Positions 1,715 to 62,950 of a stretch of DNA of 64,000 bases are shown here, piece by piece. The position numbers and the translations under genes were made by a program. Positions within the stretch are counted from its first letter, which is position 1, and each line of letters opens with the position of its first letter. Source of the stretch: Nannobrachium achirus (taxonomy: Eukaryota; Chordata; Actinopteri; Myctophiformes; Myctophidae); assembly GCA_963921795.1 (NCBI GenBank), contig OY997659.1:51642995-51706994 (forward strand), in the 5' to 3' direction. The notes below the pieces were generated by a model, which was given only the letters and a program-made list of their open reading frames with translations, made no database searches and was not told where the DNA came from.

Positions 1715-2219
1715 CAGTGGTGTAAAGTAACTAAGTACATTTACTTAAGTATTGTACTTAATTGTTTATTGTAATTTTGAGTATTTCTAACACTTACTTC
1801 TACTCCACTACATCTCGGATCCAAATATTGTACTTTTACTCCACTACAATTATTTGAAATCTTTAGTAATACCAGTTACTTTGCATAATAAATTATAATA
1901 TTATTAAACATACATGAACCACTTTATCCCTATTTAGGCTATTTGAAAATAATCAAGCTTGTAGAAAAAAATAGCAGATCTACAAGCTCAAGATGTGTCG
2001 CATAACTATGCGTTGTGAGCTTGTAGATCTGCTATTTTCAATAATGTTGTACTTTTACTTTTGGTACTTTAAGTACATTTTGATACCAATACTTTTGTAC
2101 TTTTACTCAAGTATATTTGGAATTTGAGGACTTTACTTGCAACGGAAGTATTTCTACATTGCAGTAGGCTATTGATACTTTTACTTAAGTAAAACATTCG
2201 AGTACTTTTTCCACCACTG
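1715..2219 (+). mobile_element. hAT-type MITE, family A, with 8-bp TSD
   Basis: The 505-bp element begins CAGTGGTGTAAAG and ends CTTTTTCCACCACTG. It is flanked by perfect 8-bp direct repeats GCCATGTG (1707-1714 and 2220-2227), the signature of hAT transposition. The interior is rich in the AGTAC/ACTTTTACTCC motifs of a very common teleost repeat. It has no coding capacity and carries a hairpin (1966-2038) nested inside. Confidence 0.9.
1966..2038. repeat. Hairpin repeat (TAGCAGATC family) nested in hAT family A
   Basis: Left arm AAAAAATAGCAGATCTACAA is matched by its complement ending in CTGCTATTTT. The centre is imperfectly paired (AAGATGTGTCGCAT/ATGCGTTGTG). It is inserted within the family A MITE. 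Confidence 0.85.
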
Positions 2220-2227
2220 GCCATGTG

Positions 2228-3127
2228 CACGCACGCACACACGCACACAAACTCCTCCCTCCCGTTCGCGGAGTGATCCCTTTCTCAACAATGATGTACT
2301 TTCTGACAGCTCAGCCTCTTGGGGAAAGAATAGCTTTTGGTTCCCTTAGTGCTGCATTTTGGTTGTTGTCCTGAGCTCAGCAGAGCTCCGTTTGAAAGCA
2401 TTCGTTCGCACATTCGGATTTATTCAACAGGCTGCGTTAGATAAAACTCCCGTTTAGCCCGGTGATGTTTTTGTGTTGTAACTTGTATAAACACTGTGTC
2501 GCGGGACTCCGGCAGCTCCACTATGCGGCGGCTGCTATGCTGCTACTACGAGCGTAAATGGAATCTACTTCTGGTCATGTGCGCAGCTCAACCAACCACG
2601 CACTGCTGTTACCGTAATGACTGGAAAATCGCGCAGAGGAAAAAACCGTAAAAAGCAGTTAATGGACTGCTGTGGGCGCCAGGGCACCACGGCCACTGTG
2701 GCCGTTTGGGCATGTCATTTTTCGAGGGGCACACGGCCAAAGAGAGGGGCAACGGCGGCCATGGCCGTCGTGGCCGCCGTGAATTTCCTGCCCTGGTCAT
2801 CACACTACCGGCCAATCACAGCGAGGGTTATACACTGCCGGCCAATCACAGCGCAGAACATACACTGCCGGGCTCACTGGTGGGTTTAGGAAAAACAGGT
2901 TCAGGAAGTACACTGCAGTGTTTACACTGGAGGAGTCTAGCATGTAACTCTCCAACCGCTGCTCGTAGGACACGGGAGACCTCATTGAAAGCGTTTCGGC
3001 GAGGCGAGGCGGACGCGGTGGTCTGACGGCCCGGTCCGCGAGCGAAAAACGGACGAAAAAAGCAAACGCGACCGCGGTTTGCTATACTGCTACAGACCAC
3101 CAGTTGAGCAACTTACACAGTATAGCT
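2228..3127. other. Non-coding, GC-rich in part
   Basis: No gene was identified. A locally CpG-rich part (about 2620-3090) contains two tandem copies of a short unit around GCCGGCCAATCACAGCG (2808-2868). It could be a promoter or 5' exon region, but no start or splice structure is convincing. Confidence 0.3.
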
Positions 3128-3310
3128 TTAAGTACAATGTTGAGGCACTTGAGTATTTCCAATACCTTCTACATCTCGGATCCAATTATTGTACTTTTAC
3201 TCCACTACATTATTTGAAAACGTACTAGTTACTTTTTAGATTTTGATTATTATTATTACAAAATATACATTTACCACTTTAGCCCTTAACCCATTTAGGC
3301 CTAGGATTAT
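3128..3310 (+). mobile_element. Degraded hAT family A fragment
   Basis: Shares the ACATCTCGGATCCAA / TTGTACTTTTACTCCACTAC core with 1715-2219, but lacks the terminal CAGTGGTG and any target duplication. Confidence 0.6.
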
Positions 3311-3328
3311 TGACTGCTTTAACTACTG

Positions 3329-3383
3329 AAAAATAGCAGATATACAAGCTCACGCTGCGAGCTTGTAGATCTGCTATTTTTTT
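3329..3383. repeat. Hairpin repeat, short-centre copy
   Basis: GAAAAATAGCAGATATACAA with its complement CTTGTAGATCTGCTATTTTT. The usual GC-rich centre is reduced to CACGCTGCG. A-run on the left, T-run on the right. Confidence 0.85.
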
Positions 3384-3459
3384 TAAATCATGATTTTTAT
3401 TTTTGCAAGTCTTTGAATATATCTACTTAAAAGCTAACATTTGTAACTTTAATATTTGC

Positions 3460-3725
3460 TTCTGGGTGGTCCCTGAAACAACATATTTTGAGATGGGGGT
3501 CCGTGGCCAAATACATGTAATTTTGGGGGTCCTTGACATGAAAAAGTTTGAGAACAGCATGATTTAGAAGGATTTGGAAGTCGGGTCAAAGATGGGGTCA
3601 AATATATTTAAAGACTTGCACTCATTTTCACGATTTTTCAAAAATAGCAGATCTACAAGCTCGCAGCGCGGCACTCGGTGGCGTGCTGTGAGCTTGTATA
3701 TCTGCTATTTTTCTAAAGTTAAAGC
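3460..3725 (-). mobile_element. Fragment of composite repeat E (minus orientation)
   Basis: Read on the minus strand it has the same order as 36360-36960 and 46740-47105: a hairpin, a CTTCTAA stretch, then GTTCTCAAACTTTTTCATGT and GGCCACGGACCCCCATCTC. No ends or TSD are recognisable. Confidence 0.6.
3640..3712. repeat. Hairpin repeat, class I centre
   Basis: AAAAATAGCAGATCTACAAG opposite CTTGTATATCTGCTATTTTT. The centre GCGCGGCAC-TCG-GTGGCGTGC is itself nearly palindromic. Confidence 0.88.
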
Positions 3726-3858
3726 ATAAAATAATGGTTAAAGTGGTTAAAATCTAACGCGCGTTCCAGGTATTTGAGAGTTAATACAGTTCGGCCATTT
3801 GTATCATGGTACCCCATACATCTTTAAGGTGTTTTTCCCTTTCATTTCATTTTTCTAG

Positions 3859-3995
3859 ACTGTGAATTCACAATCAACAACTGCAGAGACGTTTCTGCGG
3901 TCAGAGGGGTGCCAATAATGCTTTACGTCAGACAAGATGACGGCACATTCAAAGTGTTGTGCTGTGAGCAACGTAAGGTTTATGTGGAGAGCCTG
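3859..3995 (+). CDS. il18: il18-like cytokine, penultimate coding exon
   Basis: A pyrimidine-rich acceptor TTTTTCTAG precedes a 137-nt open exon that ends at donor CTG|GTGAGTG. After two carried-over nucleotides it encodes 45 residues, beginning CEFTINNCRDVSAVRG and continuing VPIMLYVRQDDGTFKVLCCE. The exon ends in phase 0, which matches the phase-0 start of the exon at 5389. The NCRD motif followed by a beta-strand-rich stretch and a cysteine matches the mid-region of interleukin-18 (IL-1 superfamily beta-trefoil). The mature cytokine is secreted after caspase processing and signals through the IL-18 receptor to drive interferon-gamma responses. Upstream exons with the pro-domain were not found. 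Another IL-1 family member (IL-1beta-like) is the main alternative. Confidence 0.72.
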
Positions 3996-4161: not shown

Positions 4162-4192
4162 GATAGCAGATCTACAAGCTACAAGCTATTTT
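4162..4192. repeat. Partial hairpin repeat in the il18 intron
   Basis: One arm, AGATAGCAGATCTACAAGCT, followed by a collapsed second arm (ACAAGCTATTTTC). Probably a deletion derivative of the hairpin family. Confidence 0.6.
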
Positions 4193-14872: not shown

Positions 14873-14931
14873 AATTGGCAATCTACAAGCTCGCATTGCG
14901 GCACTTTGTGAGCTTGCAGATGGGATATTCT
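14873..14931. repeat. Degenerate hairpin repeat
   Basis: AATTGGCAATCTACAAGCTC opposite GAGCTTGCAGATGGGATATT. The arms have drifted but the GCGGCAC centre is recognisable. Confidence 0.6.
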
Positions 14932-15950: not shown

Positions 15951-16566
15951 GACAGCTTGACCAACAGCTTAACCTTACAACCCGGATAACATCACTCAAA
16001 AAGTTTACAAAAAACAGGTTTTCACTTTGCTGGCAAAACATTCTTGGACTGAATACAATAGTGTCTTCACAATAGTGTGTTCACACTATTGTGAACAAAA
16101 AGAGCTTTGGTGAAGAGGGGAAAAAGAGCAGACTAAGTACAGAGTGAAAGGTCAAGTTTATCAAGTATTGACTCTCAAGTGGTTAAATATCTGAAAACAC
16201 AAATTGACATGAATCCAAAATACACTGATGATTGTGCTGTCAATCAATGAAACTATATGGAATCTGGGGGTCCATATATAGAGAGAGATAAAGCTCTCTC
16301 TCAGCTAAGGGGTCCTTGGCCTGAAAAAGTTGAAGACGTCTGGCCTATATAGCAACCACACTATCTAACTATAAATGAGCCAAATCAATGTCCGTCTGTG
16401 TGTCTGTCTGTGCTTACGTCCAGCCAATGGGAAAACCCCTGAAAAAAACAGAGTGACGCCATTCAATGGTAAAACCCTTGGTGCCATATGGCATTGGTCC
16501 GACTTCTCATTGTTCCTACATCCCATTAGTCTGAATGTGGTGAATGTTAACCTGGTGAAAATACTA

Positions 16567-22689: not shown

Positions 22690-22760
22690 AAATAGCCGAT
22701 TTACAAGCTCACAATGCCTAGCAGCAGGAGGCGGTGTGAGCTTGTAGATCTGCCATTTTT
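22690..22760. repeat. Hairpin repeat
   Basis: AATAGCCGATTTACAAGCTC opposite GAGCTTGTAGATCTGCCATT, with an imperfect centre (CAATGCCTAGCAGCAGGAGG). It adjoins a minus-strand fragment (22590-22690) of the family seen at 44401-44863. Confidence 0.82.
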
Positions 22761-23530: not shown

Positions 23531-23728
23531 CAGAGGCGTCAATTGGGTATGGCAAGCTATGGCAGCTGCCATACCTTGGCTACAGTGGGAAATAATAAAA
23601 TGTACTTTTCATCATGTCTGTTGCTAAGGTATGGCAACATGACTGGTGTCTTGCACGCACGCGAGGGCGCGCGTGCAAGACACCAGTCATGTTGCCATAC
23701 CTTAGCTTTTGCTGAACTGACGCCACTG
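23531..23728 (+). mobile_element. hAT-type MITE with internal palindrome and TSD
   Basis: Begins CAGAGGCGTCAATTGGGTAT and ends ACTGACGCCACTG. Perfect 8-bp duplications GTAAACCC lie at 23523-23530 and 23729-23736. The right half (about 23624-23705) is an almost perfect palindrome: TAAGGTATGGCAACATGACT, then TGCACGCACGCG and its complement. Confidence 0.9.
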
Positions 23729-23824: not shown

Positions 23825-23894
23825 GTATAGCAGATATACAAGCTCATAGCGTGGTGAATTGCGTCGAGTTGTGAGCTTGTAGCTCTGATATTTT
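23825..23894. repeat. Hairpin repeat, diverged
   Basis: TATAGCAGATATACAAGCTC opposite GTGAGCTTGTAGCTCTGATA. The centre is degenerate. Confidence 0.7.
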
Positions 23895-28431: not shown

Positions 28432-29093
28432 CTAGTCAATCTAAGAAGGTTTGACCCAAAAGAAATTGCAATAGTAATGGTTCAAGGTTTTTATCATCCA
28501 AATAACATATAAAAAGTTGTGAATTATATATTTGGGGATCAAGGTGAATTCAGGGCGTTCAAGTTTGGGTCCATTCACTTACTATACAGGAAAAGAATAT
28601 ACCCCCCCAAAAAATCTTCTTAGCATGTGAGGGGTCTAACTAGGGTTAGACCCCTTGGGTTTTCATGATCCTGAATCCATTGCAAGCATTTGTTTTGCAC
28701 AAAAAAACATTTGTCCGGTTAAAAAACGGACACCACAAAACGGAGCTGACCCCAGAAAAGTGATGACTCATCACTAATCCATAGTTTTGTGGTGTCCGTT
28801 TTTAGCCCAAGGAATGTTTTTCGTGCAAAACAAATGCTTGCAATGGATTCAGAATCATGAAAAAACCCTAGTTAGACCCCTCACATGCGACTTAAATAAG
28901 ATTGTTTGGGGGTCTTTTTTTCCTGTATAGTAAGGGAATGGACCCAAACTTGAACCACCTTGATCCACTAAATATATAATTCACAACTTTTAATATGTTA
29001 TTTGGATGACCCTAAGGATCATAAAAAACCTTGAACCATTACTATTGCAATTTCTTTTGGGTCAGGCCCTTTTTTTTGCTTAGATTGACTGGC
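28432..29093. repeat. Long palindromic element, copy 3 (~660 bp)
   Basis: Left end GGCTAGTCAATCTAAG pairs with CTTAGATTGACTGGCC. Successive inner arms also pair: CAATAGTAATGGTTCAAGG, TTGTGAATTATATATTT and CATTGCAAGCATTTGTTTTG. The core shares sequence with copies 1 and 2. Arms are about 90% matched by eye. Confidence 0.85.
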
Positions 29094-30499: not shown

Positions 30500-30632
30500 T
30501 ATGATACCAATATAGGCCCTGTTCCATTTCATGTATACTGTAGCACAATGATACCAATATAGGCCCTGTTCCATTTCATGTACTGTAGCACAATGATACC
30601 AATATAGGCCCTGTTCCATTTCATGTACTGTA
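30500..30632 (+). repeat. ~45-bp tandem repeat, three copies
   Basis: Units of GCACAATGATACCAATATAG then GCCCTGTTCCATTTCATGTA(TA)CTGTA. The same unit fills 31065-31475. Confidence 0.95.
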
Positions 30633-30633
30633 G

Positions 30634-30963
30634 CCAGGGACGTGCTGGCCATTGGGAAAAGCGGGCCAACTCCCGAAAGGCCGGTTCATTCCCGGCCGGT
30701 CCAGGCCGGCCATTAGGAAAAAATCCAAATAAAATGTCAGCCCTCGTTCCATTTGGGGGGCTGGGCTGCCAACAAAGTAATTTGTCACTGTCGGGCAGAA
30801 ACCTTGTATCACCAAGTTTCAAATGTACATATTTTTTTCTCAAAGCAAAGCCCTGCTTCATAATACAAGGCTGATGCACAAAAGTAGTGAAAACAGCAGA
30901 TCTACAAGCACACAACGCCTCGCGGTGCGAGGCGTTGTGTGCTTGTAGATCGGCTGTTTTCAC
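30634..30963 (+). mobile_element. Left part of hAT-like element, duplicated and cut at the hairpin
   Basis: CAGGGACGTGCTGGCCATTG begins a block almost identical to 31477-31807. It stops exactly at the right foot of its hairpin, where sequence matching 29070 onward starts. Confidence 0.85.
30887..30963. repeat. Hairpin repeat, class II centre, near-perfect
   Basis: GTGAAAACAGCAGATCTACA, then AGCACACAACGCCTCGC, a loop GGT, and the complement. The single mismatch is AGCAGAT opposite ATCGGCT. Confidence 0.93.
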
Positions 30964-31475: not shown

Positions 31476-31476
31476 C

Positions 31477-32035
31477 CAGGGACGTGCTGGCCATTGGGAA
31501 AAGCGGGCCAACTCCCGAAAGGCCGGTTCATTCCCGGCCGGTCCAGGCCGGCCATTAGGAAAAAATCCAAATAAAATGTCAGCCCTCGTTCCATTTTGGG
31601 GGCTGGGCTGCCAACAAAGTAATTTGTCACTGTCGGGCAGAAACCTTGTATCACCAAGTTTCAAATGTACACATTTTTTTCTCAAAGCAAAGCCCTGCTT
31701 CATAATACAAGGCTGATGCACAAAAGTAGTGAAAACAGCCGATCTACAAGCACACAACGCCTCGCGGTGCGAGGCGTTGTGTGCTTGTAGATCGGCTGTT
31801 TTCACTAGTTTAAATCATTTTTAAAATGATAAATACAAAACAAACGGTTTTGGACGTACAACGTTTTCACCCGACAACGACGAGATATAACTCATGTAAT
31901 TGGCCCACTGGCTTGTCACTTGCCATGATCTGAAATGGCAACGTGGCTATAGAGAGAGATCTCTCTCTATAGCACGCAATGAGGGCCTCTACAACTCTTT
32001 TTCCCGGGCTGAGTCAGGGGCCCAGCACGTCCCTG
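31477..32035 (+). mobile_element. hAT-like element with CAGGGACGTGCTGG termini
   Basis: Left end CAGGGACGTGCTGGCC pairs with right end GGGCCCAGCACGTCCCTG. The flanks (ACTGTAGC, GATGTAAC) share only five of eight bases, so the TSD is eroded. It carries a perfect hairpin (31727-31807) and a 28-bp palindrome CTATAGAGAGAGATCTCTCT... (about 31948-31974). A related fragment in reverse orientation lies at 55205-55490. Confidence 0.8.
31727..31807. repeat. Hairpin repeat, class II, perfect 39-bp arms
   Basis: 81 bp with two 39-bp arms in perfect complement around the loop GGT. The arm reads TAGTGAAAACAGCCGATCTA then CAAGCACACAACGCCTCGC. Confidence 0.97.
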
Positions 32036-36415: not shown

Positions 36416-36488
36416 AAAAATAGCAGATCTACAAGCTCACAGCGCGGCACCGAGTGCCGTGCTGCAAGCTTGTAGATCTGCTATTTTT
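36416..36488. repeat. Hairpin repeat, class I
   Basis: AAAAATAGCAGATCTACAAG paired with CTTGTAGATCTGCTATTTTT. Centre AGCGCGGCAC-CGA-GTGCCGTGCT. Confidence 0.93.
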
Positions 36489-36844: not shown

Positions 36845-36917
36845 AAAAATAGCAGATGTACAAGCTTGCAGCGCGGCACTCGGTGCCGCGCTGTCAGCTT
36901 GTATATCTGCTATTTTT
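36845..36917. repeat. Hairpin repeat, class I (inverted centre)
   Basis: AAAAATAGCAGATGTACAAG paired with CTTGTATATCTGCTATTTTT. Centre CAGCGCGGCAC-TCG-GTGCCGCGCTG. Confidence 0.92.
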
Positions 36918-37435: not shown

Positions 37436-37695
37436 GAAAATAGCAGATCTATCAGCTATTTTAAAATAGCCTGTATGTTTTATAATAGCCTTAATGTATA
37501 TCAGAAAAGTATAACTAGAAACTAAAGTGTTAAAATAAATGTAGTGGAGTAAAAATAGCTACAATATCTGTGGAGTAGTAAAATACATAAAAAAGTAGTA
37601 AAGTAAAAGTAGGCTATTGGAAATTGGAGATTTAGGCTACTCAAGTAAAAGTACAAACCTCAAAATGGCCCAAGTAAATGTATTTGCGTTACACC

Positions 37696-37697
<2 letters not shown>
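37436..37697 (-). mobile_element. hAT family A fragment with partial hairpin
   Basis: Ends GTATTTGCGTTACACCACTG at the right. The interior holds AGTAAAAGTA and GTAGTGGAGTAAAAATA. A collapsed hairpin (AAAATAGCAGATCTATCAGC) sits at its left edge. Confidence 0.7.

Positions 37698-37790
<93 letters not shown>
37698..37790 (+). repeat. (TG)n microsatellite
   Basis: About 92 bp, lying between the family A end and the start of a family B element. Confidence 0.97.
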
Positions 37791-37791
<1 letters not shown>

Positions 37792-37865
37792 AGCGTCACA
37801 CCAAATTCTGCATGGGCCCTGGCTACAAGGATTCACTGCGGGCCCCCCATGAATGTTAACTATTG

Positions 37866-37924
37866 AAAAATAGCAGATACAAGCACCGAGTGCCGCGCTG
37901 CGAGCTTGTATATCTGCTATTTTT
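37866..37924. repeat. Hairpin repeat with left-arm deletion
   Basis: The left arm is shortened to AAAAATAGCAGATACAAGC. The centre CACCGAGTGCCGCGCTGCG and right arm CTTGTATATCTGCTATTTT are intact. Confidence 0.85.
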
Positions 37925-38064: not shown

Positions 38065-38135
38065 AAAAATAGCAGATACAAGCTCGCAGCGCGGCACTCG
38101 GTGCCGCGCTGTGAGCTTGTATATCTGCTATTTTT
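38065..38135. repeat. Hairpin repeat, class I
   Basis: AAAAATAGCAGATACAAGCT against AGCTTGTATATCTGCTATTT. Centre GCAGCGCGGCACTCGGTGCC, then GCGCTG. Confidence 0.9.
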
Positions 38136-42541: not shown

Positions 42542-42771
42542 GGTTTTTCTGGACAGTGTGGACAGGGAATGGATCCATTTGGTTCCATGTGTGCACTCTC
42601 GGAGTTAAATAAATAGATTAGGGTCCCGAAGATCAAATATTAGTTTTCCAATCAGCGGGTGTCTGCATGCATGGCCTAATCTTTATGAAACTAGGGGCAG
42701 GGGCGTCACACCAAATTCTGGGCCCTGGGTACAAGGATTCACTGCGGGCCCCCCATGAATGTTAACTATTG

Positions 42772-42844
42772 AAAAATAGCAGATATACAAGCTCACAGCG
42801 CGGCACCGAGTGCCGCGCTGCAAGCTTGTATATCTGCTATTTTT
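42772..42844. repeat. Hairpin repeat, class I (first in family B)
   Basis: AAAAATAGCAGATATACAAG with CTTGTATATCTGCTATTTTT. Centre AGCGCGGCAC-CGA-GTGCCGCGCT. Arms essentially perfect. Confidence 0.95.
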
Positions 42845-43034
42845 GAAAAATCGTGAAAATGTGTGCAAGAAACCTATGTCAAGGACCCCCAAGAAGATGA
42901 TATGTATTTGGCCACGGACCCCGATCTCAAAATATTTAGTTCCAGGGACCCCCCCAGAAGCAAAATTTGAGTTAAAAATGTTCGCTTAAAAAATACACAT
43001 ATTCAAAGATTTTCACACATTTTCACAACTTTTC

Positions 43035-43107
43035 AAAAATAGCAGATCTACAAGCTCGCAGCGCGGCACTCGGTGCCGCGCTGTGAGCTTGTATATCTGC
43101 TATTTTT
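43035..43107. repeat. Hairpin repeat, class I (second in family B)
   Basis: AAAAATAGCAGATCTACAAG with CTTGTATATCTGCTATTTTT. Centre GCGCGGCAC-TCG-GTGCCGCGC. Confidence 0.95.
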
Positions 43108-43354
43108 CAATAGATACAGTTATTAGGGCCCCTCCACCTTGGGCCCCAGGAACTCAGTCCCACTTTCCTACCCCTTGTGACGCCCCTGACTAGGGGTCCT
43201 TGAGCATTTAAAATGGTTTGAGATTCACTGATGTACAGTAAATGACATGATGATTGCCTGCAGGGAAAGATGGATGTTATTATCAGCAGATAATCAGGAC
43301 AAGGCCCTGTGAACTATTGACCCAGGCAGATCTAATCTTAGCAGTTCTGTTCAA

Positions 43355-43741
43355 CAGGGACGTGCAGAGAATTTTAGAGAGGCACGGGCTGACATTTCTA
43401 AAAAGGCCTTTTGGTGAAAATATCGAAAATAGCAGACCTCCAAGCTCACAACGCGTCGCGCTGCGACGCGTTGTGAGCTTGGAGGTCTGCTATTTTCGAT
43501 GCTTGATTTCTACACAGAGAGGGCAATTCTTTCAACATAAGATGCTGCATTTAAGTTCAGGAGACTTCGGACAAGGCAATTCTCTTGAATGTTGCCTTCG
43601 GGTATGGCATGGAAAGAAGGCATTTGCATTTCTTTCACCACGGTAAAGATTGCATTTATGGTCTGGAAAGGGCACTTTTTACAGACGGATAAAAGGGCAG
43701 GGGCTCAGGCCCTCTTTGATGTCTATGTGTGCACGTGCCTG
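43355..43741 (+). mobile_element. hAT-type MITE, family C, perfect TSD
   Basis: Begins CAGGGACGTGCAGAGAATTT and ends TGTGTGCACGTGCCTG. The 8-bp duplications CTGTTCAA (43347-43354 and 43742-43749) are perfect. It carries a perfect hairpin (43422-43500). A second copy in reverse orientation is at 53869-54290. Confidence 0.93.
43422..43500. repeat. Hairpin repeat, variant arms, perfect 38-bp arms
   Basis: 79 bp: arm ATCGAAAATAGCAGACCTCC then AAGCTCACAACGCGTCGC, loop GCT, then the exact complement. GACCTCC replaces the family's GATCTAC, with the matching change in the other arm. Confidence 0.97.
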
Positions 43742-44400: not shown

Positions 44401-44863
44401 CAAGGGTCTTCAACAGGGGATCCGGGACCCCTATAGGGTGTCCTCAGAGTTACTACAGGGGGTCCTCCAAATCTTTGTGATATAATTTTTTTTCTCCTTT
44501 TTTATATTAACCATTTGAACCCTAGCATCCATATTCTGAGAACTTTGGCCAAAAATAGCCGATCTACAAGTTCACAACGCCTGGCAGCGCGAGGCGTTGT
44601 GAGCTTGTAGATCGGCTATTTTCGGCAAAGAGATTTGGTGTAGAGGGGAAAAAAAGCAGACTAAGTACAGAGTGAAAGGTCAAGTTTATAAAGTATTGAC
44701 GGTTCGAGTGGTTAAATATCTGAAAACACAAATTGACAATACACTGATGATTGTGCTGTCAAACAATGAAACTATATGGAATCTATGAACAGGTTGTGGG
44801 GGTCCCTGCTTCATCGCTCTCTCAACTAAGGGGTCCTTGGCCTGAAAACGTTGAAGACCCCTG
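44401..44863 (+). mobile_element. hAT-type MITE, GGGTCTTCAAC termini, perfect TSD
   Basis: Begins CAAGGGTCTTCAACAGGGGA and ends AACGTTGAAGACCCCTG. The 8-bp duplications GTTTAGAA (44393-44400 and 44864-44871) are perfect. Fragments of the family lie at 16090-16345, 22590-22690 and 62661-62950. Carries one hairpin. Confidence 0.92.
44551..44623. repeat. Hairpin repeat, class II
   Basis: AAAAATAGCCGATCTACAAG with CTTGTAGATCGGCTATTTTC. Centre CACAACGCCTGGCAGCGCGA, then GGCGTTGTG, with a small bulge. Confidence 0.92.
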
Positions 44864-46739: not shown

Positions 46740-47105
46740 ACACATTATTGTGTATCATTATTTTATGCTTTAACTATTGACAAATAGCAGATATACAAGC
46801 TCACAGCGCGGCACCGAGTGCCGCGCTGCGAGCTTGTAGATCTGCTATTTTTGAAAAATCGTGAAAATTAGAATTTCGACCCGATTCTTTTCAATCCTTC
46901 TAAGGCTTTTTGAAAAACCTATGTTTCTATATGTCAGCAATCTGGCCAGCCATCGTCAAAGAAAAGGTCCTTTTCACTTAAAGTAACTGGAGCTTGGTTT
47001 GTCTGTTCTTGAGAGTCTACTATGCCAGTGGTTCTCAAACCTTTTCATGTGAAGGACCCCCAAAATGATATGTATTTGGCCACGGACCCCCATCTCAAAA
47101 TATTT
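46740..47105 (+). mobile_element. Composite repeat E, copy with one hairpin
   Basis: Same order as 36360-36790: GAACGGGTACACATTATTGT, hairpin, CAGCAATCTGGCCAGCCATC, GGTTCTCAAACCTTTTCATG, GGCCACGGACCCCCATCTC. It stops at CAAAATATTTCTCC, where a family A fragment begins. Confidence 0.75.
46782..46852. repeat. Hairpin repeat, class I
   Basis: AAATAGCAGATATACAAGCT with AGCTTGTAGATCTGCTATTT. Centre AGCGCGGCAC-CGA-GTGCCGCGCT. Confidence 0.93.
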
Positions 47106-47293: not shown

Positions 47294-47972
47294 AACAGGC
47301 AGCTGTATTTGGTACAGCGCCTGAACCGGTGCTCCCACGCAAATCGATGCTGTCTGTGAAAGCAAATGGAAAGGTGCATCGTGCGCAGGCACTGACGTAA
47401 GCTAAAGCAGTGCAGAACGCGCTGACTAGAAGATGACCTGGGCCATGGCCTTTTGGCATTTATTTACCTGGTGCTGCCTGTGAGCCAAGGCCCTCACCTC
47501 TCCTCCACACACAAAATCTATACTTTTAATCAATAAGGATTGCTGAGTCACTGCATACCAAAGCCCACAAGCTCTTCTCTCCTAGCCATACCTATCGTAT
47601 TTCAACAGTAGTACGTGTAAGTGCAGGAGAAAGTCTGTTGGTTAAGGCTAGGAGTGTTGGATGCTCCGTCCCGGGTCGGGAATGGCAGTAATGTTTGAGG
47701 TAAATAGACATGGGAGAATGGAGTATCCCCCAGGAAAGCCGTCTTGTGTAAAGAAAAGCCTTTTTTTTAAGCCAGCAGCAGAGAACACAGACAGAGCCCT
47801 TGTCCTTTTCCAAGTACAGCCCATTGCTATGGCAACGAGAGAAAAAAAAAGAAGAAAAAAGAGACAAATGGCTCGGTCCAACCTAGGAGATTTCAGTGAC
47901 AACGTTGAGAGAACCCACAAACTTGTATCCGTGTAGTTCCCGGACATGTGTCACCCTTTTACGCTATTACCA
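47294..47972. other. Non-coding, nothing recognised
   Basis: Unique-looking sequence. Overlapping 90-99-codon frames on both strands at about 47590-47950 show no family resemblance. Confidence 0.35.
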
Positions 47973-48687
47973 CACGTATTACACAATTTCCATTCAATTC
48001 AAAGGAGCATTGCAAAAAAAAAAAGAAAAAAAAAAGAATCTCTTTTAATTGTGTTTAAAGGTAGATAGATACCTTTATTATCCCAAGGGGAAAATTCAGT
48101 TGGCCAGAGCCGGCACAGCAGTTTAAGGTTACAGTTACAGGGAAGTAAGAAAGAAAAAATAAGTACTGTTGTGTACAGCGAAAAACAAACAAGGAAGAGG
48201 TAGCAGCTTTGAAATACTGTATGTACAGTAGGTCTAGAGGCCTACTCGGCTAGCCACTCAACAGTTCACAAATCTTGCTGCTGTGTTCGCACATTTGTTG
48301 TATTTCTCCCAGTAGCATGTCATTATAGGCGATAAAAAATACAATCACACATTCTCAAACATTTTAAAAAAACAGCAAGAAACGCACATCTACTGGCTCA
48401 CAATGTGTTGGTGTGTGTGACTGTGACACTGTACATTGTGGAGCTAATAGATTGGCTTTTCCTTCAGTTTTCTTTTTTATATTTTTAAATTAGGGCTTAA
48501 GTGGTTAACATGGCTCTTTCTTGTTGACTGGCTTGAGTTAACGTCATCATTATTTACTGAAATACTTAACATTATGGCTTTTGTTTCAATGGTTCTCAAA
48601 GTGGGGTCTGGGGACTCCCAGGGTTTCTTGAGTTGGGTTCTAGGGGGTCCCCAGCAAAAGACTTGACCTCCCCCTCTCCATATTCAG

Positions 48688-48716
48688 AAAATAGCAGATC
48701 TACAAGCTTGTAGATT
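48688..48716. repeat. Minimal hairpin remnant
   Basis: AAATAGCAGATCTACAAGCT then TGTAGAT. The core ATCTACAAGCTTGTAGAT is a perfect 18-bp palindrome. The centre and the outer right arm are lost. An identical copy at 50638-50668 arose through the duplication. Confidence 0.75.
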
Positions 48717-49660
48717 TCAATAATAAAAAACAACAAATACACAAAAGAATCTTCTTGTATGGGGGGCGCCTGCCTGCCTGCCAAATCCTTTGCAGTCCAA
48801 ATCCTTTGCAGAGGACTTGAATATCGTCGGGTGGAAATGTCCATAACTGTTACTTTTCCATGCCAAAAGTTGCAGTTCTGCAAGCTTGTAGATCAGCTAC
48901 TTCTTTGTGTGATGCTGTAGTGTGATCAAGAGGGGGGGGGGTAAATTCGTTAATTTACGAGGAAAAAAAAACACAAAAGATGAACCTTTAGTTAAGATCA
49001 TTTGGGGGTCCTTCACACGAAACTGTCTGACAACCACCGACTTAATTACAAACCGTCTCTTTGTGTTTACAACGTGTCAGTTGCTAAACGCCCCCCCCCC
49101 CCCCCCCCCCCCCACTGACTGGGGGGTCAGTCAGGAGGTACACACATTCTTGGACGATGGTGCGAGGAGGTGCAGAGGAGGTGCAGAGGTCGTTAGTCAG
49201 GTGATGGATTTTACGCTCAATTTAACAAACGTGTCTGTTAATGAGGAGGAGGGTCAGAGGTGACGCCGGGAAATCCAATATCCATTAGTCTCCTCCCACT
49301 TAGTGCGGCGTGGCCGTTCCCTCCGGGGGGGGGGGGGTGTCTCCCTCACGCCGTTATAATATGGAAGCGATGAGGTTGAGGCATGGGGTCGCAGTCTTTT
49401 GATTCAAATTTCAATTAATTCAAAATAATTTGGGGTCCACTCCACGGCCAAATACATATTAATTTGAAAATGTGTGAGAAAAAAAATATCTGAAGTATGA
49501 TTTTATAATTATAACCACCTCAGCCCTGTTTCATACCTCGTGGTGTCATATGCGACAACATTCGTTCCAGGAGTATCGGGCGAGATTAGCTTCGGGCACA
49601 GACGCAGACCGACCCTCTTCTAGACAGCTTGCTGCAGCACACCAATCTAAGCGACCTACT

Positions 49661-49912
49661 GTATATTGACCTACTGTATATTGACCTACTGTATATTGAC
49701 CTACTGTACATTGACCTACTGTACATTGACCTACTGTATATTGACCTACTGTACATTGACCTACTGTATATTGACCTACTGTACATTGACCTACTGTACA
49801 TTGACCTACTGTATATTGACCTACTGTACATTGACCTACTGTATATTGACCTACTGTATATTGACCTACTGTACATTGACCTACTGTATTTGACCTACTG
49901 TACATTGACCTA
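49661..49912 (+). repeat. 15-bp minisatellite, copy 1
   Basis: About 17 units of ACCTACTGTA(T/C)ATTG. The DLLYI and TYCTL repeat peptides in its open frames come from the 15-bp period. Confidence 0.97.
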
Positions 49913-51919
49913 CACACGTATTACACAATTTCCATTCAATTCAAAGGAGCATTGCAAAAAAAAAAAAGAAAAAAAAAAAGAATCTCTTTTAATTGTGTTT
50001 AAAGGTAGATAGATACCTTTATTATCCCAAGGGGAAAATTCAGTTGCCCAGAGGCGGCACAGCAGTTTAAGGTTACAGTTACAGGGAAGTAAGAAAGAAA
50101 AAATAAGTACTGTTGTGTACAGCGAAAAACAAACAAGGAAGAGGTAGCAGCTCTGAAATACTGTATGTACAGTAGGTCTAGAGGCCTACTCGGCTAGCCA
50201 CTCAACAGTTCACAAATCTTGCTGCTGTGTTCGCACATTTGTTGTATTTCTCCCAGTAGCATGTCATATTATAGGCGATAAAAAATACAATCACACATTC
50301 TCAAACATTTAAAAAAAACAGCAAGAAACGCACATCTACTGGCTCACAATGTGTTGGTGTGTGTGACTGTGACACTGTTACTGTACATTGTGGAGCTAAT
50401 AGATTGGCTTTTCCTTCAGTTTTCTTTTTTATATTTTTAAATTAGGGCTTAAGTGGTTAACATGGCTCTCTCTTGTTGACTGGCTTGAGTTAACGTCATC
50501 ATTATTTACTGAAATACTTAACATCATGGCTTTTGTTTCAATGGTTCTCAAAGTGGGGTCTGGGGACTCCCAGGGTTTCTTGAGTTGGGTTCTAGGGGGT
50601 CCCCGGCAAAAGACTTGACCTCCCCCTCTCCATATTCAGAAAATAGCAGATCTACAAGCTTGTAGATTTCAATAATAAAAAACAACAAATACACAAAAGA
50701 ATCTTCTTGTATGGGGGGCGCCTGCCTGCCTGCCAAATCCTTTGCAGAGGACTTGAATATCGTCGGGTGGAAATGTCCATAACTGTTACTTATCCATGCC
50801 AAAAGTTGCAGTTCTGCAAGCTTGTAGATCAGCTACTTCTTTGTGTGATGCTGTAGTGTGATCAAGAGGGGGGGGGGGGGGGGGGGTAAATTCGTTAATT
50901 TACGAGGAAAAAAAAACACAAAAGGTGAACCTTTAGTTAAGATCATTTGGGGGTCCTTCACACGAAACTGTCTGACAACCACCGACTTAATTACAAACCG
51001 TCTCTTTGTGTTTACAACGTGTCAGTTGCTAAACGCCCCCCCCCCCCCCCCCCCCCCCCACTGACTGGGGGGTCAGTCAGGAGGTACACACATTCTTGGA
51101 CGATGGTGCGAGGAGGTGCAGAGGAGGTGCAGAGGTCGTTAGTCAGGTGATGGATTTTACGCTCAATTTAACAAACGTGTCTGTTAATGAGGAGGAGGGT
51201 CAGAGGTGACGCCGGGAAATCCAATATCCATTAGTCTCCTCCCACTTAGCGCGGCATGGCCGTTCCCTCCGGGGGGGGGGGGGGGGGGGGGGTGTCTCCC
51301 TCACGCCGTTATAATATGGAAGCGATGAGGTTGAGGATGAGGTTGAGGCATGGGGTTGCAGTGTTGATTTTGATAAGCACATTTTGATTTAGTTTTAGTC
51401 GCAGTCTTTTGATTCAAATTTCAATTACTTCAAAATAATTTGGGGTCCACTCCACGGCCAAATACATATTAATTTGAAAATGTGTGAGAAAAAAAAATAT
51501 CTGAAGTATGATTTTATAATTATAACCACCTCAGCCCTGTTTCATACCTCGTGGTGTCATATGCGACAACATTCGTTCCAGGAGTATCGGGCGAGATTAG
51601 CTTCGGGCACAGACGCAGACTGACCCTCTTCTAGACAGCTTGCTGCAGCACACCAATCTAAGCGACCTACTGTACATTGACCTACTGTACATTGACCTAC
51701 TGTACATTGACCTACTGTACATTGACCTACTGTACATTGACCTACTGTATATTGACCTACTGTACATTGACCTACTGTACATTGACCTACTGTATATTGA
51801 CCTACTGTACATTGACCTACTGTACATTGACCTACTGTACATTGACCTACTGTATATTGACCTACTGTACATTGACCTACTGTACATTGACCTACTGTAC
51901 ATTGACCTACTGTATATTG
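49913..51919 (+). repeat. Tandem segmental duplication, copy 2 (~2.0 kb)
   Basis: Second copy of 47973-49912, including the C-run (about 51036-51059), the G-runs (50867-50886 and 51271-51291) and the terminal minisatellite. Homopolymer lengths differ most between the copies. Confidence 0.95.
51665..51919 (+). repeat. 15-bp minisatellite, copy 2
   Basis: About 17 units of ACCTACTGTACATTG with a different pattern of TACA/TATA variants from copy 1. Confidence 0.97.
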
Positions 51920-53868: not shown

Positions 53869-54290
53869 CAGGCACGTGCACACATAGAAATCAAAGGGGG
53901 CTTGAGCCCCTCTGTCTGTAAAAAGTGCCCTCTCCAGACCATGAATGCAGTTTTTACTATGGTGAAAGAAATGCAAATGCCCTCTTTCCATTCCATACCT
54001 GAAGGCAGCATTCAAGAGAATTGAATCCAAACTCTCCTGAACTTGAATGCAGCATCTTATGTTGAAAGAATTGCCTTCTCTGTGTAGAAATCCATGCTGT
54101 TACACCACATCTCCATTATTTACTTGATTATTAGTTCAGTGTGGTTTCAAGCACCGAAAATAGCCGACCTCCAAGCTCACATGCTGCGACGCGATGTGAG
54201 CTTGGAGGTCTGCTGTTTTCAGTATTTTCACCATAAGGCCCTTTTAGAAATGTCAGCCCCTGCCTCTCTAACATTCTCTGCACGTCCCTG
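53869..54290 (-). mobile_element. hAT-type MITE, family C, reverse copy
   Basis: Read on the minus strand it starts CAGGGACGTGCAGAGAATGT and ends TGTGTGCACGTGCCTG, like 43355-43741. Flanks ATCAACTG (53861-53868) and GTCAACTA (54291-54298) share six central bases. Carries a hairpin. Confidence 0.88.
54156..54220. repeat. Hairpin repeat, GACCTCC variant
   Basis: GAAAATAGCCGACCTCCAAG with CTTGGAGGTCTGCTGTTTTC. The centre is shortened (CTCACATGCTGCGACGCGAT then GTGAG). Confidence 0.9.
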
Positions 54291-55204: not shown

Positions 55205-55490
55205 GAACACATATCGTCGTTGTCGGGTGGAAACCTTGTATGTCCAAGACCGTTCGTTTTGTATTTATTATTTTAGAAGTGAACTAAACTAGTCAAAATA
55301 GCAGATCTACAAGCACAAAACGCCTTGCACCGCGAGGCGTTGTGTGCTTGTAGATCGGCTGTTTTCACTACTTTTGTGCGACAGCCTTGCATGATGAAGC
55401 AGGGCTTTGCTTGGTGAACAGAAGTACAAATTTGAAACTTGGAGATTAGAGGTTTCTGCCCGACAGTGACGATATGCTACTGAAACAAGA
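55205..55490 (-). mobile_element. Reverse fragment of the 31477-32035 element
   Basis: Shares, in reverse, GAAGCAGGGCTTTGCTT, TTTCTGCCCGACAGTGAC and the flanks of the hairpin with 31610-31880. The ends are missing. Confidence 0.75.
55290..55370. repeat. Hairpin repeat, class II
   Basis: TAGTCAAAATAGCAGATCTA then CAAGCACAAAACGCC, opposite GGCGTTGTGTGCTTGTAGAT then CGGCTGTTTTCACTA. A few mismatches. Confidence 0.92.
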
Positions 55491-55494: not shown

Positions 55495-55960
55495 CTACAG
55501 TTTACAGTTTACAGTTTAGGCATTTAGCAGACGCTTTTAATCCAAAGCGACTTACAAAAAAGCAGATAATACATCACTATAATAAACAAGATAACATGTC
55601 AGAACATCAACAACAATATATGCATATGAATATCAATCTAAAAAACAATATAGTCAGTAAAGAAAAGGATTCTAAAAAACCTACAAAAAATGCTAACTAG
55701 CTTCATACATGGCCATTGAGTGTTTCAATAGTGCTAAGGGTTTAGGTGGAGTCTGAAAAGGTGAGTCTTCAGTCCACGGCGAAAGCTAGCGAGTGAGTCC
55801 GTTGTTCTAAGTGCGACAGGGAGTTTATTCCACAGCTTGGGGGCCAGGAGGGCAAACTGTCTCGGACGAGTGGATTTTTGCCCTGGGGCTTTTAGCGAGG
55901 GTTCTGTCAACATCCCTGTGTTGGCTGATCTACAAGATCAAGACACAGCAACACTGATTC
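55495..55960 (-). pseudogene. L2/CR1-like LINE 3' end
   Basis: The minus strand encodes STRPRQFALLAPKLWNKLPV, then ALRTTDSLASFRRGLKTHLF, the C-terminal LLAPKLWN-LP...S...F...LKTHL pattern of L2/CR1-clade ORF2. A 3' UTR ending TTTAGGCATTTAGCAGACGC / CCAAAGCGACTTAC on the plus strand follows. 5' truncated. Confidence 0.85.
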
Positions 55961-56317
55961 CGGGGGGCGAACGTTAGGCCAAAATAGCTGAACTACAAGC
56001 TCACGTGGCCACGTTTTGTGTGTAGATTTGGTTTGGAACACCAAAAGAGGGCCAAGCACAGAACCCTGGGGGACCCCGGCCAGCCAGCCAAGTATTGTAC
56101 ATGCACAGTGGGGGGGTTGTACAGTAGGTGGTTTAAAACGACCCATTGTAACGTCAACATCACATCCTCTCGCTTAGATACGGACAAACGGAACGCTGGA
56201 AAGAAAGCGTGAAAGAAAATACAAATGTCAAGAAAAAACAGCACCCGGACGCGCGGGGTGCATGCAGCAAGCACGCCACGGCGTTTTCACACACAGTGTC
56301 AGGTTGTTATCTTTCAA

Positions 56318-56391
56318 CTTGTGTGCACGCGTGTGTGCGTGTGTGTGCGTGCGCGCGCGTGCGTGTGTGTGTGTGTGTGTGTTTGTGTGCG
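56318..56391 (+). repeat. (GT)n/(GC)n-rich microsatellite
   Basis: GTGTGCGTGCGCGCGCGTGC then (GT)9, imperfect. Confidence 0.85.
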
Positions 56392-56519
56392 CCTGTGCCC
56401 CACGATTTAACCACCGGCGCACAACAAACACGCTCCTCCTTGATAAGCTGTTTGTGGTGCCTGACACGACAACTCTCTGGCGCTGCAGCATGGCTGCTTT
56501 AAGTAGATAATTGGAGTGC

Positions 56520-56651
56520 TGAGGGAGAGAGGGAACAACAAAGAGTAGAGGAGGAGGAGAGGAGGAAGAAAGAGAAGGAAAAACAAAGGAGGAGGAGGAG
56601 GGGAGGGGGAGGGGAGGAGGGGAGGAGGGGGAGGGAGGGGAGGGAGGGCAG
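56520..56651 (+). repeat. Polypurine (GGA)n tract
   Basis: About 130 bp that are almost entirely purine (GAGGAGGAGAGGAGG, GGGGAGGGGGAGGGGAGG). Possible triplex or G-quadruplex former. Confidence 0.9.
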
Positions 56652-56773
56652 CACAGGGGAGGCGCAGTCGGGGAGCGTCACACCAAATCCTGGGCCCTGG
56701 GTACAAGGATTCACTGTGGGCCCCCCATGAATGAGAACGCATTATTATGCATTATGTTGTGCTTTAACCATTG

Positions 56774-56838
56774 AAAAATAGCAAGCTCACAGCGCGGCAC
56801 CGAGTGCCGCGCTGCGAGCTTGTAGATCTGCTATTTTT
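56774..56838. repeat. Hairpin repeat, class I, left arm shortened
   Basis: AAAAATAGCAAGCTCACAGC lacks GATCTACA on the left. The right arm CGAGCTTGTAGATCTGCTAT is complete. Confidence 0.88.
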
Positions 56839-57096: not shown

Positions 57097-57169
57097 AAAA
57101 ATAGCAGATCTACATGCTCGCAGCGCGGCACTCTGTGCCGCGCTGTGAGCTTGTATATCTGCTATTTTT
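57097..57169. repeat. Hairpin repeat, class I
   Basis: AAAATAGCAGATCTACATGC opposite GAGCTTGTATATCTGCTATT. Centre GCGCGGCAC-TCT-GTGCCGCGC. Confidence 0.92.
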
Positions 57170-57430: not shown

Positions 57431-57433
<3 letters not shown>

Positions 57434-57498: not shown

Positions 57499-57500
<2 letters not shown>

Positions 57501-58975: not shown

Positions 58976-59480
58976 ATCTTGTGATGTTTTGTATCTGCTT
59001 ATTGTAAGTCGCTTTGGATTAAAAGCGCCTGCTAAATGCCTAAACTGTAAACTGTAACTGTAACTGAGGAGGTGAGTCTTCAGATTACGGTGGAAGACTG
59101 GGAGTGAGTCTGCAGTTCTAATTGCAAAGGGGAGTTCATTCCACAGTTTGGGGGCCAGGAGGACGAAGAGCCTGGGACGAGTGGAGCGTTGTCCCGGATG
59201 TTTTCTGTCAGCTTCACAGTGTTAGCTGATCTGAGTGTGAGGGAGGGGTTGTAGGGTTGGATCAGACTTTAAAGATATGGGGGTGCAATAACTTTGGTAG
59301 CTTTGTGGGCCAACATCAGTGTTTTGTACTCTGTCTGGGAGCCAATGGAGGCAGCGGAGAAGGGGGGGAGACCAAGCCCCCAGAACCCTGGTGGAGCCCT
59401 GAAGCGCAATGGACATGGTGGCCGTTTTGAGGTACTGCAGTTGGGGCCACTAACACATGAACGCGCACTATGCATGAACA
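58976..59480 (-). pseudogene. L2/CR1-like LINE 3' end with ORF2 C-terminus
   Basis: The minus strand gives, from the right, a frameshifted RCLHWLPDRVQNTD / KTLMLAHKATKVIAPPYL stretch. It then reads STRPRLFVLL and APKLWNELPFAIRTADSL followed by FHRNLKTHLL, the conserved C-terminal LINE pattern. The 3' UTR ends with GCGCTTTTAATCCAAAGCGA / CTTACAATAAGCAG on the minus strand, like 55495-55570. Dead and 5' truncated. Confidence 0.85.
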
Positions 59481-61424: not shown

Positions 61425-61545
61425 GCATTACATTTTGTATAACACTGTTCTATTGTGAAAATAGCCGATCTACATGCTCACAACGCCTCGCGCTGCGAGG
61501 CGTTGTGAGCATGTAGATCGGCTATTTTCACAATGTCTGAAAAAT
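61425..61545 (+). mobile_element. Fragment of hAT family D containing a hairpin insertion
   Basis: GAGGCATTACATTTTGTATA then ACACTGTTCTATTGTGAAAA match family D (60190-60222, and the complement of 63258-63305). The hairpin interrupts the native palindrome at its midpoint. Confidence 0.82.
61452..61534. repeat. Hairpin repeat, class II, perfect 40-bp arms (filled site)
   Basis: 83 bp: arm ATTGTGAAAATAGCCGATCT then ACATGCTCACAACGCCTCGC, loop GCT, exact complement. The inserted unit itself is 61462-61524 (63 bp), as shown by the empty site at 63258-63277. ACATGC replaces the usual ACAAGC, with GCATGT in the other arm. Confidence 0.97.
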
Positions 61546-61802
61546 ATATATATAGTTTTTTCAGTTTTTTACACAGGTTTCTACCTGTGCAGCTGACCTG
61601 TAGAACCTGGGAATATATCATTTTGTCAAGATGGGGAGAATACAAGAGAGGAGAATATAATTATAATACATTGTTAAAGTGACCATTTTGTTAAATTTTG
61701 CATTTGTTGTTATTTTACTGTAATTTAACAACATAATAACCAGCGCAGATAGACAAAGAGACATTCATGGATTTATATTTAAAAGTAACTTTTATTTTCC
61801 CC

Positions 61803-61858
61803 CCTGGACCCAGGGTATGGCAGCCGCATACCCCTGCCATACCCAATTGACGCCCCTG
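61803..61858 (-). mobile_element. Fragment of the 23531-type MITE
   Basis: The minus strand starts CAGGGGCGTCAATTGGGTAT then GGCAGG and GGTATGCGGCTGCCATACC, like the left end of 23531-23728. Confidence 0.75.
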
Positions 61859-61990
61859 TATACAAGTGAAGAACTCGGGTGTATTTTTAACTTCCTCCAG
61901 ACAGACGGATGACTAAAAGTGTTTGGATTGGTGCTAAACATTAGCTCTGCTTTGTGATAATTGGTAAGCCATTGAAAGGACATGATGAGC

Positions 61991-62013
61991 GGGGGGGGGG
62001 GGGGGGGGGGGGG
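61991..62013 (+). repeat. Poly(G) tract
   Basis: A run of about 22 G. Its length is likely unreliable in assembly. Confidence 0.9.
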
Positions 62014-62131
62014 AGTGGGTGCTGCATGGGCAAAGAAAGACAATGGCGCCGTTAGCTTGCGGTTTGGCTCCAGCGCGTTGTGGAAACACGCAAATTAGCA
62101 CCCTTGCACAAACACACGGCGTGGATGTAAA

Positions 62132-62534
62132 CATGGGCGTCACACCAAATTCTGGGCCCTGGGTACAAGGATTCACTGCGGGCCCCCCATGAATGTTAAC
62201 TATTGAAAAATAGCAGATATACAAGCTCACAGCGCGGCGAGCTTGTAGATCTGCTATTTTTGAAAAATCATGAAAATGTGTGCAAGAAACCTACGGTATG
62301 TCAAGGACCCCCAAGATGATATGTATTTGGCCACGGACCCCGATCTCAAAATATTTAGTTCCAGGGACCCCCAGAAGCAAAGTTTGAGTTAGAAGTGTTC
62401 GCTTAAAAAATAAATATATTCAAAGATTTTCACAGATTTTCACAACTTTAAAAAAATAGATAAAGTTATTAGGGCCCCTCCACCTTGGGCCCTGGTAACT
62501 CAGTCCCACTTTCCTACCCCTTGTGACGCCCCTG
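62132..62534 (+). mobile_element. hAT-type MITE, family B, second hairpin lost
   Basis: Begins CATGGGCGTCACACCAAATT and ends CTTGTGACGCCCCTG. Flanks GATGTAAA (62124-62131) and AATGTAAA (62535-62542) match at seven of eight. The second hairpin of 42698-43188 is replaced by a clean join TTTAAAAAAATAGATAAAG. Confidence 0.9.
62206..62261. repeat. Hairpin repeat, centre deleted
   Basis: AAAAATAGCAGATATACAAG with CTTGTAGATCTGCTATTTTT. The centre is cut to CTCACAGCGCGGCGAG. Confidence 0.92.
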
Positions 62535-62660
62535 AATGTAAACACACAGCCAGACATGGACGGAACGGGCCCAGCAGTGCTGCTTAATTAAAATGATAAT
62601 AACGTGCTGCTCTCTGCGGCGGCCAGGCACGGTGACGCCACCGCTGCTACTGAACGCTTT

Positions 62661-62950
62661 AGAGCAGGGGTCCTCAGTGACCTTCAGGCCAAGCGGAGCC
62701 CATATAGCTGAGAGAGAGACGAAGCAGGGACCCCCACATTGTGTTGCACATTAAACCTTTTCGTAGATTTCATTGATAGTTTCATAATAGACTTGGATTC
62801 ACGTTGATGTCGGTATTTTCAGACATCTATAACCACTTAAACCGTCATTAGTAAACTTTAGTTAGTCTGCTCTTTTTCCAAACCTGTTTGCTGAAAATAG
62901 CAGATCTACAATTTTGTAGATCTGCTATTTTTGGTTCTCCTCAGGATAGG
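62661..62950 (-). mobile_element. Fragment of the 44401-type hAT MITE
   Basis: AGAGCAGGGGTCCTCAGTGA, GACGAAGCAGGGACCCCCAC and TAGTTTCATAATAGAC match the reverse of 44640-44863 in part. Includes a short hairpin. Confidence 0.65.
62894..62931. repeat. Short hairpin repeat, outer arms only
   Basis: AAAATAGCAGATCTACA, spacer ATTT, TGTAGATCTGCTATTTT. The centre is wholly lost but the outer arms are perfect. Confidence 0.92.

Follow-up and report, generated by a model that had tools for sequence, protein, structure and literature searches.

In this study, we analyzed a 64,000-bp window of the Nannobrachium achirus genome (C22:51642995-51706994 of a 1,658,514,493-bp assembly of 564 contigs), in which a short palindromic hairpin recurs between an A-run and a T-run. 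We asked what this hairpin is, how its copies relate to the larger repeats around them and how it may have spread.

Results

The hairpin unit and its abundance

Searching for the arm TAGCNGATCTACAAGCTC together with its complementary partner, we catalogued 25 hairpins in the window (20 by arm pairing, five added later), in line with the 25-30 proposed by an earlier sequence-only reading of this DNA. All 20 positions listed by that reading hold a hairpin, whose first arm begins 3-10 bp further in. The typical unit is 63 bp long and consists of a 30-bp arm, a 3-nt loop and the complementary 30-bp arm, bordered by an A-run and a T-run; including four A and four T as borders it measures 71 bp, and it is palindromic and non-coding. 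Sixteen of the 25 hairpins have the 63-bp size and nine are shortened to 25-61 bp, while seven extra decayed or mini copies lie in the window beyond the catalogue. The arms of h08, h15 and h22 contain no mismatch, and these three, taken as single strands with their flanks, form a fold over the full length at -51 to -52 kcal/mol (z about -17); h22 is the core of an 83-bp perfect palindrome (61452-61534). Arm matches with at most two mismatches averaged 0.02 in 50 dinucleotide shuffles (maximum 1), which excludes a chance origin of the hairpins; the same shuffles gave 1.02 perfect hairpins each, a count that includes a 200-base N gap.

Genome-wide, the exact 18-bp arm TAGCNGATNTACAAGCTC was found 151,855 times in forward and 151,784 times in reverse orientation, and its backwards-read control 0 times. 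Because a hairpin with two exact arms yields one match per strand, there are at least about 150,000 hairpins with an exact arm, a figure that may include tandem arm copies such as those seen, with mismatches, in L037. At that locus (L037:614-739) the arm has turned satellite, forming a 25-bp tandem array of six units (CAGCAGATCTACAAGCTG..). Applied to a 200-kb sample, made up of 10 kb taken at 10 Mb from each of the contigs C1-C20, a looser detector recovered 44 hairpins, or one per 4.5 kb; the window yielded 23 with it. Scaled up from the sample, the genome total would be about 365,000 copies by extrapolation. Being short, non-coding, composed of inverted repeats and present in high copy number, the hairpin has the form of a miniature inverted-repeat transposable element (MITE) in the broad sense, which would move by a transposase supplied in trans.

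Borders and palindromic flanks

The sequence-only reading had also described an A-run on the left, a T-run on the right and no direct repeat, and our counts agree. At least three A and at least three T border 22 of the 25 window hairpins (exceptions m2, h04 and h06), and T occupies outward positions 1-4 in 106, 104, 101 and 99 of 108 flanks and position 5 in 69, with the limit that copies of one family are not independent. We compared the borders of 54 hairpins with the full 63-bp length and found no direct repeat of 2-6, 8 or 9 bp, and hence no 8-bp target site duplication (TSD) of the kind by which hAT elements are recognized. Spy transposons are reported to be flanked by AAA and TTT, to lack a TSD and to occur in invertebrates only (PMC4482050, PMC9179366, PMC11304231), and ISL2EU elements to have an AT duplication and terminal inverted repeats (TIRs) usually starting with GG (PMC4482050). 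The hairpins carry AAA and TTT directly at their ends as Spy does; an AT duplication fits formally as well, but the ends would then read AGC, not GG.

Beyond the four A and four T, both flanks tend to mirror each other, and the mirrored sequence differs by family. Mirror matches were found at 28 of 36 comparisons for positions 5-8, 16 of 36 for positions 9-12 and 8 of 36 for positions 13-16; over positions 5-12 there were 44 of 72 in nine contexts, versus 24.3 in mispaired flanks (p at most 2e-5). Calculated per flank cluster, the mirror fraction was 0.46 versus 0.27, and mispaired flanks were never as high in 3,000 draws. In some families the flank palindromes reach as far as 10 bp before they stop. 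Unoccupied AAAATTTT sites in the window served as a flank control and numbered only three, one of them at 63267; they did not differ from the occupied sites (Mann-Whitney p=0.39). Either the unit picked palindromic targets or its arrival produced them.

One unit within several MITE families

The hairpins of eight loci (h05 and h16 being one family) share 67-94% identity, in contrast to 14-39% matches in their flanks (positions 13-40). The proposed very small palindromic unit, with sharp A/T borders and many different flanks, was recovered; the idea that copies hopped singly was not supported. Family A (family names are our own) is a larger repeat that usually carries two inverted hairpins, and all 12 hairpins of the window that are clearly of class I are part of it; of the remaining 13, most have flanks in common with another copy or repeat. 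When 100 hairpins with full flanks were clustered, 21 flank clusters resulted (36, 21, 8, 8, 4, 4, 3, 2, 2 and 12 singletons); this set combines the window, 30 arm-match loci (L023-L052, the first arm matches on C1 and no random draw) and the sample, overlapping loci being counted twice and the single hairpin L038:1930/L038:1946 being entered twice. The DE cluster, built by single linkage, also includes h01. Thirty-three of 43 sample hairpins fell into five flank families, namely A (19), DE (6), B (4), G (2) and C (2). Long common flanks, which according to the sequence-only reading would mean that copies never moved on their own, are thus largely but not wholly the rule.

Members of A, B, C, DE and G and the host of h01 show the 8-bp TSD and the CAG-type TIRs of hAT MITEs. 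An end-based search, which allowed three mismatches and a shift of 1, had no control and shared some elements between runs, detected a TSD matching at 7 or more of 8 positions in 4 of 5 A, 7 of 11 DE and 8 of 12 G elements; an intact hairpin was present in 4, 7 and 5 of these elements, respectively. A strict test (CA..TG ends, 8-bp TSD and TIR) placed 11 of 67 hairpins inside an element versus 12 of 400 random positions, and the elements found, with several different ends, include A, B, C, DE and the h01 host. In addition, a stricter scan of sample and window returned 13 hAT-like elements, seven of which hold a hairpin or arm, versus 0 elements in reversed sequence. Since 33 of 43 sampled hairpins belong to families with hAT-type members, it was probably these MITEs that multiplied most of the copies in the sample.

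Family B cores occur in hAT-like elements with three different termini (L054:658-1105, with an arm remnant only, L057:6641-7198 and L070:2254-2765), which suggests an exchange of MITE ends around the hairpin. A 463-bp local duplication with h07 and h08 (30501-30963 and 31343-31805) is 99.35% identical, and its homology ends 7 bp past the hairpin, which makes the hairpin look like the breakpoint. The second hairpin missing from the family A element at 62132..62534 was read by eye as a deletion via AATAG microhomology.

Arm changes between and within families

The two classes of hairpin centre had been called unrelated, yet a count by eye on our alignment shows 8 of 12 inner-arm positions to be equal and the other four pairs to be compensated; classes I and II thus have homologous centres. 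Over 16 hairpins, compensated double changes affected 11 of 34 base pairs, a value reached in 0 of 500 shuffles (with eight sequences, 10 of 34 pairs); the corresponding test for further pair types was reached by 27 of 500 shuffles.

The position of these changes in the history of the families is informative. Between families, represented by five family consensus sequences or single hairpins, we counted 10 symmetric and 2 one-arm changes; within families, 12 copies compared with their own consensus gave 0 symmetric and 24 one-arm changes and one both-sided change without pairing, a change shared by several copies being counted once per copy. The contrast of 10:2 versus 0:24 is significant (Fisher p=2.6e-7). 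In this count h01 and h06 were excluded, h18 stood outside the alignment, and ties in the DE consensus were resolved in favour of h22, a choice that tilts DE towards symmetry; this family adds no between-family event. A larger set of 23 family A copies likewise displayed 0 symmetric and 43 one-arm changes. Because symmetric change is found between families and one-arm change within them, arm symmetry looks like a property of lineage founding, not of residence at a site. In situ correction of the arms as the main source of symmetry was rejected on the absence of symmetric changes within families.

Shortened hairpins and copies without a hairpin

The hairpin shrinks through internal deletion. 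Open-centre patterns recovered 691 short forms in family G and 647 in family B; among the matches listed, which cover about 100 places each with letters for fewer than 60 in B, the short forms make up a near-continuum of internal deletions, and the deletion joints are often GATC or other self-complementary words. Being self-complementary, such words are present in both arms. Short B forms read AAAACTTTT and similar, and one B-like copy has AAAATTTT. Further, L055:166, with a shortened hairpin, differs by only 4% from L073 and L089, where the hairpin is absent.

One copy of the family G site in the window carries no hairpin and is a paralogue of the h22 site (Table 1); the alignment of L029:2563 with it spans the junction (72 bp, 95.8%). 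L077 also has no hairpin, and both of its sides resemble the h22 flanks by eye, at a computed distance of 0.37.

Search for a transposase and for other identities

DDE_Tnp_4 domains are common in the genome (150 matches scored of 627 candidates), which attests to their presence and does not tie them to the hairpin ends. Among the pairs listed from 73 solo arms, 14 have arms that face each other; ten open reading frames (ORFs) between the longer facing arm pairs outside the window contained no transposase domain, only an annexin fragment in L067 and weak matches in L064. In the window, candidate long elements with these ends at 37441-37919, 48692-48899, 50644-50835 and 55985-56833 proved by eye to be interrupted or paired mini hairpins, and a Pfam scan of 17 ORFs gave two sub-cut-off matches, both in a minisatellite ORF. 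An RNA gene was rejected, as in the default Rfam search only UnaL2 exceeded its gathering score and microRNA matches stayed below the cut-offs. With laxer settings the family A hairpin at 42752-42842 passed the cut-off of an insect-flavivirus element (score 42.2, cut-off 41, E=0.0014), which we take as a chance hairpin match. Matches in bacterial and viral collections, none of which continues as this hairpin, were likewise taken as chance.

Other features of the window

The coordinates of the hairpins and their host elements are collected in Table 1. A separate 84-bp palindrome with 36-bp perfect arms lies at 23623-23706, about 120 bp from h06, and inverted repeats outside the catalogue that are perfect over 14 bp or more were found at 16066-16095, 28722-28803, 29771-29857, 31946-31973 and 34983-35019. 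Both copies of a tandem duplication of about 2 kb (47971-51919, 93.8% identical) contain 15-bp minisatellites as well as paired mini hairpins. UnaL2-type 3' ends of long interspersed nuclear elements are located at 55514-55568 and 58991-59045, the latter below the Rfam gathering score. Together with the chromosome size of the contigs up to C24, these tails pointed to a teleost.

Table 1. Hairpins, host elements and related sites in the window.
Feature	Coordinates	Strand	Description
h01 host element	1715..2219		hAT-like, 505 bp, ends CAGTGGTGTAA, 8-bp TSD GCCATGTG
h01	1972..2034		From arm pairing; in host element 1715..2219
h02	3334..3376		Shortened, family A
h03	3645..3707		Family A
m2	4164..4188		Mini hairpin remnant
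h04	14875..14927		Decayed
h05	22693..22755		Decayed, family DE
h06	23828..23890		Decayed, separate flank cluster
h07	30894..30956		Family B, within local duplicate of the h08 region
h08	31736..31798		Perfect, family B
h09	36421..36483		Family A
h10	36850..36912		Family A
m5	37441..37458		Mini hairpin remnant between AAAA and TTTT
h11	37871..37919		Shortened, family A
h12	38070..38130		Family A, 2 bp shorter
Family A element	42698..43188		hAT-type MITE, 491 bp, two hairpins, 8-bp TSD ACTAGGGG
h13	42777..42839		Left hairpin of 42698..43188, family A
h14	43040..43102		Right (inverted) hairpin of 42698..43188, family A
Family C host element	43355..43741		Ends CAGGGACGTGC..CACGTGCCTG, 8-bp TSD CTGTTCAA
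h15	43430..43492		Perfect, family C
Family DE element	44401..44863		hAT-type MITE, 463 bp, 8-bp TSD GTTTAGAA
h16	44556..44618		Family DE
h17	46785..46847		Family A
h18	54161..54215		Shortened, family C, inverted
h19	55299..55361		Family B, inverted
h20	56779..56833		Family A, one outer arm shortened
h21	57102..57164		Family A
h22	61462..61524		Perfect, 30-bp arms (variant CATGC), family G flank
Family A element	62132..62534		403 bp; h23 inside, second hairpin missing
h23	62211..62256		Shortened, family A
m1	62898..62927		30-bp shortened hairpin, family DE cluster
Hairpin-less copy of family G site	63258..63307	-	Reads ATTGTGAAAATTTTCACAAT; paralogue of the h22 site (AAAA-hairpin-TTTT)

Discussion

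To our knowledge, few repeat units that combine clean borders with a very high copy number are as small as this hairpin. Angel and other palindromic MITEs are near-perfect foldbacks that reach high copy number in animal genomes, as the hairpin does here; unlike Angel, the hairpin is much shorter, has nothing but its arms and a 3-nt loop, and is mostly nested in other MITEs. The hAT-type MITEs, with their 8-bp TSD and CAG-type ends, are the hosts that carry and multiply it, whereas the hairpin itself has neither the 8-bp duplication nor CAG ends and is internal cargo of several families. A literature search by titles and abstract openings returned no report of such a hairpin.

Our analyses suggested, with an even chance of being right, that a 63-bp palindromic insertion unit with A-run/T-run borders and no clear duplication entered several hAT MITE lineages before these were amplified. 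The unit would have entered each lineage by a separate insertion between an A-run and a T-run, presumably in the middle of a site that was locally palindromic. It may have been cross-mobilized by a candidate transposase, for which a TSD-less enzyme of the PHIS (PIF/Harbinger-ISL2EU-Spy) type, similar to that of Spy, would be the obvious candidate. Insertion would have preceded the amplification of each MITE family, and the hAT MITEs would then have carried the hairpin along. Every founding event would start with identical arms, either through the copying of a single arm via a hairpin intermediate or because only symmetric units are mobile; one-arm copying and selection for symmetric units would both yield founding symmetry, and the data do not separate them.

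Several results weigh against such an insertion unit. First, random insertion into existing MITEs predicts more pre-insertion than filled copies, which we did not see in families G, B and DE. In family G, the filled 23-mer occurs 13,054 times genome-wide, while the 26-mer without the hairpin has 2 exact matches and 19 with one mismatch; hairpin-less family B gave 6 matches at 5 places (at most 2 mismatches) and hairpin-less DE gave 16 matches (at most 3 mismatches). No sizeable hairpin-less population near the consensus was present in these three families, copies more than about 15% diverged being missed by such searches, and none of the hairpin-less copies in them is a certain pre-insertion site. 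In 18 of the 19 one-mismatch G copies the mismatch falls in the central 8 bp, and AAAATTTT in family G fits the end of the internal deletion series. Taking together their rarity and the deletion spectra, hairpin-less copies are better read as losses, and those with AAAATTTT are probably losses of the hairpin; on the same grounds the site at 63258-63307 was rejected as a clean pre-insertion site. A further set of hairpin-less G copies has the centre AACATTTT (7 exact and about 9 more with one other mismatch) and is unexplained by simple internal deletion. Second, a 2-bp direct repeat lies outside the A/T runs in 5 of 54 hairpins, versus 0 in mispaired flanks, and none is longer; the flank palindrome is also uneven, with cluster medians of 1-7 of 8. 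Third, in the larger set over all families (12 hairpins without family and 2 duplicate rows excluded), 7 symmetric versus 85 one-arm changes were counted within families. The seven sit in the rows L060:1507, L061:6836 and W:43430 (C, n=2), which we judged to be misassigned or unreliable, the last being compared with a two-copy consensus. In family C, h18 and h15 also differ by one symmetric change at arm position 22 and one in the flank (by eye). Finally, 56 of 67 hairpins were not placed in a strict hAT element, and no autonomous element was recognized between facing solo arms.

A different explanation, which we consider unlikely but worth weighing, is that the hairpin was never mobile by itself: it would be a core module of hAT MITEs, either ancestral or acquired by exchange, that was spread through hAT transposition and through recombination between MITEs meeting at the hairpin. 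The assignment of 33 of 43 sampled hairpins to families with hAT-type members and the scarcity of hairpin-less copies in G, B and DE are what this explanation expects, as are the family B cores with three different outer ends, the end CAGGGACGTGC shared by B and C, and h22, which has only about 50 bp around the hairpin in common with family G. Exchange with free breakpoints would not be expected to leave sharp borders of four A and four T, however; in addition, family A has different ends and two hairpins, and h06 and the clustering singletons have no recognized hAT host, though decay may hide one.

Replicative copying, in which a nascent strand jumps at an A-run to a hairpin elsewhere, copies a single arm of it, snaps back and rejoins at the T-run, appears improbable as the source of the copies. 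It would yield identical arms and might add a few palindromic flank bases, which agrees with arms that are symmetric at founding and with the flank palindromes of at most 10 bp seen in some families. Template switching at quasi-palindromes is described as creating and correcting perfect stems (PMC8794818); it would make arms identical and lead to compensated double changes. The symmetry of the hairpin, however, arises between insertion lineages, not during residence: no in situ correction was seen (0 symmetric versus 24 changes within families), and microhomology would be needed at each event to account for the borders of four A and four T.

That the hairpin is a genuine non-autonomous member of the Spy group, following an AAA|TTT rule in this fish-like genome, is very improbable in our view: its likeness to Spy lies in the A and T runs and the borders without a visible TSD (reported for Spy in PMC4482050 and PMC11304231), in the inverted repeats at its ends, and in the few hairpin-less G copies and the one B-like copy that read AAAATTTT, but those copies are probably deletions, no Spy transposase is linked to the hairpin, the borders fit a 2-bp AT duplication with ends AGC..GCT equally well, the hairpin is 63 bp in all, one palindrome without an interior and often with palindromic flanks past the A/T runs, and Spy is reported from invertebrates alone (PMC9179366, PMC11304231). 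The Spy-like rule put forward by the sequence-only reading agrees with the borders and may or may not extend to the empty sites and the enzyme; with no transposase tied to the ends and hairpin-less copies that are likely losses, we do not claim Spy membership for the hairpin.

The insertion unit that entered MITE lineages before their amplification, our preferred explanation, has a bolder form, which we regard as a long shot: the hairpin might be a mobile booster cassette, taken up by MITE lineages before they amplified, with one-arm inheritance resetting a perfect palindrome at each founding. The part of it that concerns uptake before amplification is based on the lack of a sizeable hairpin-less population near the consensus in G, B and DE.

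These findings show a palindromic cargo nested within several MITE families. The contrast between symmetric changes among families and one-arm changes within them offers a route to ask whether palindromic elements are copied via a single arm, and the hairpin-bearing families offer one to ask why some MITE lineages amplify. If the hairpin did act as a booster, a 63-bp structure would decide which MITEs amplify.

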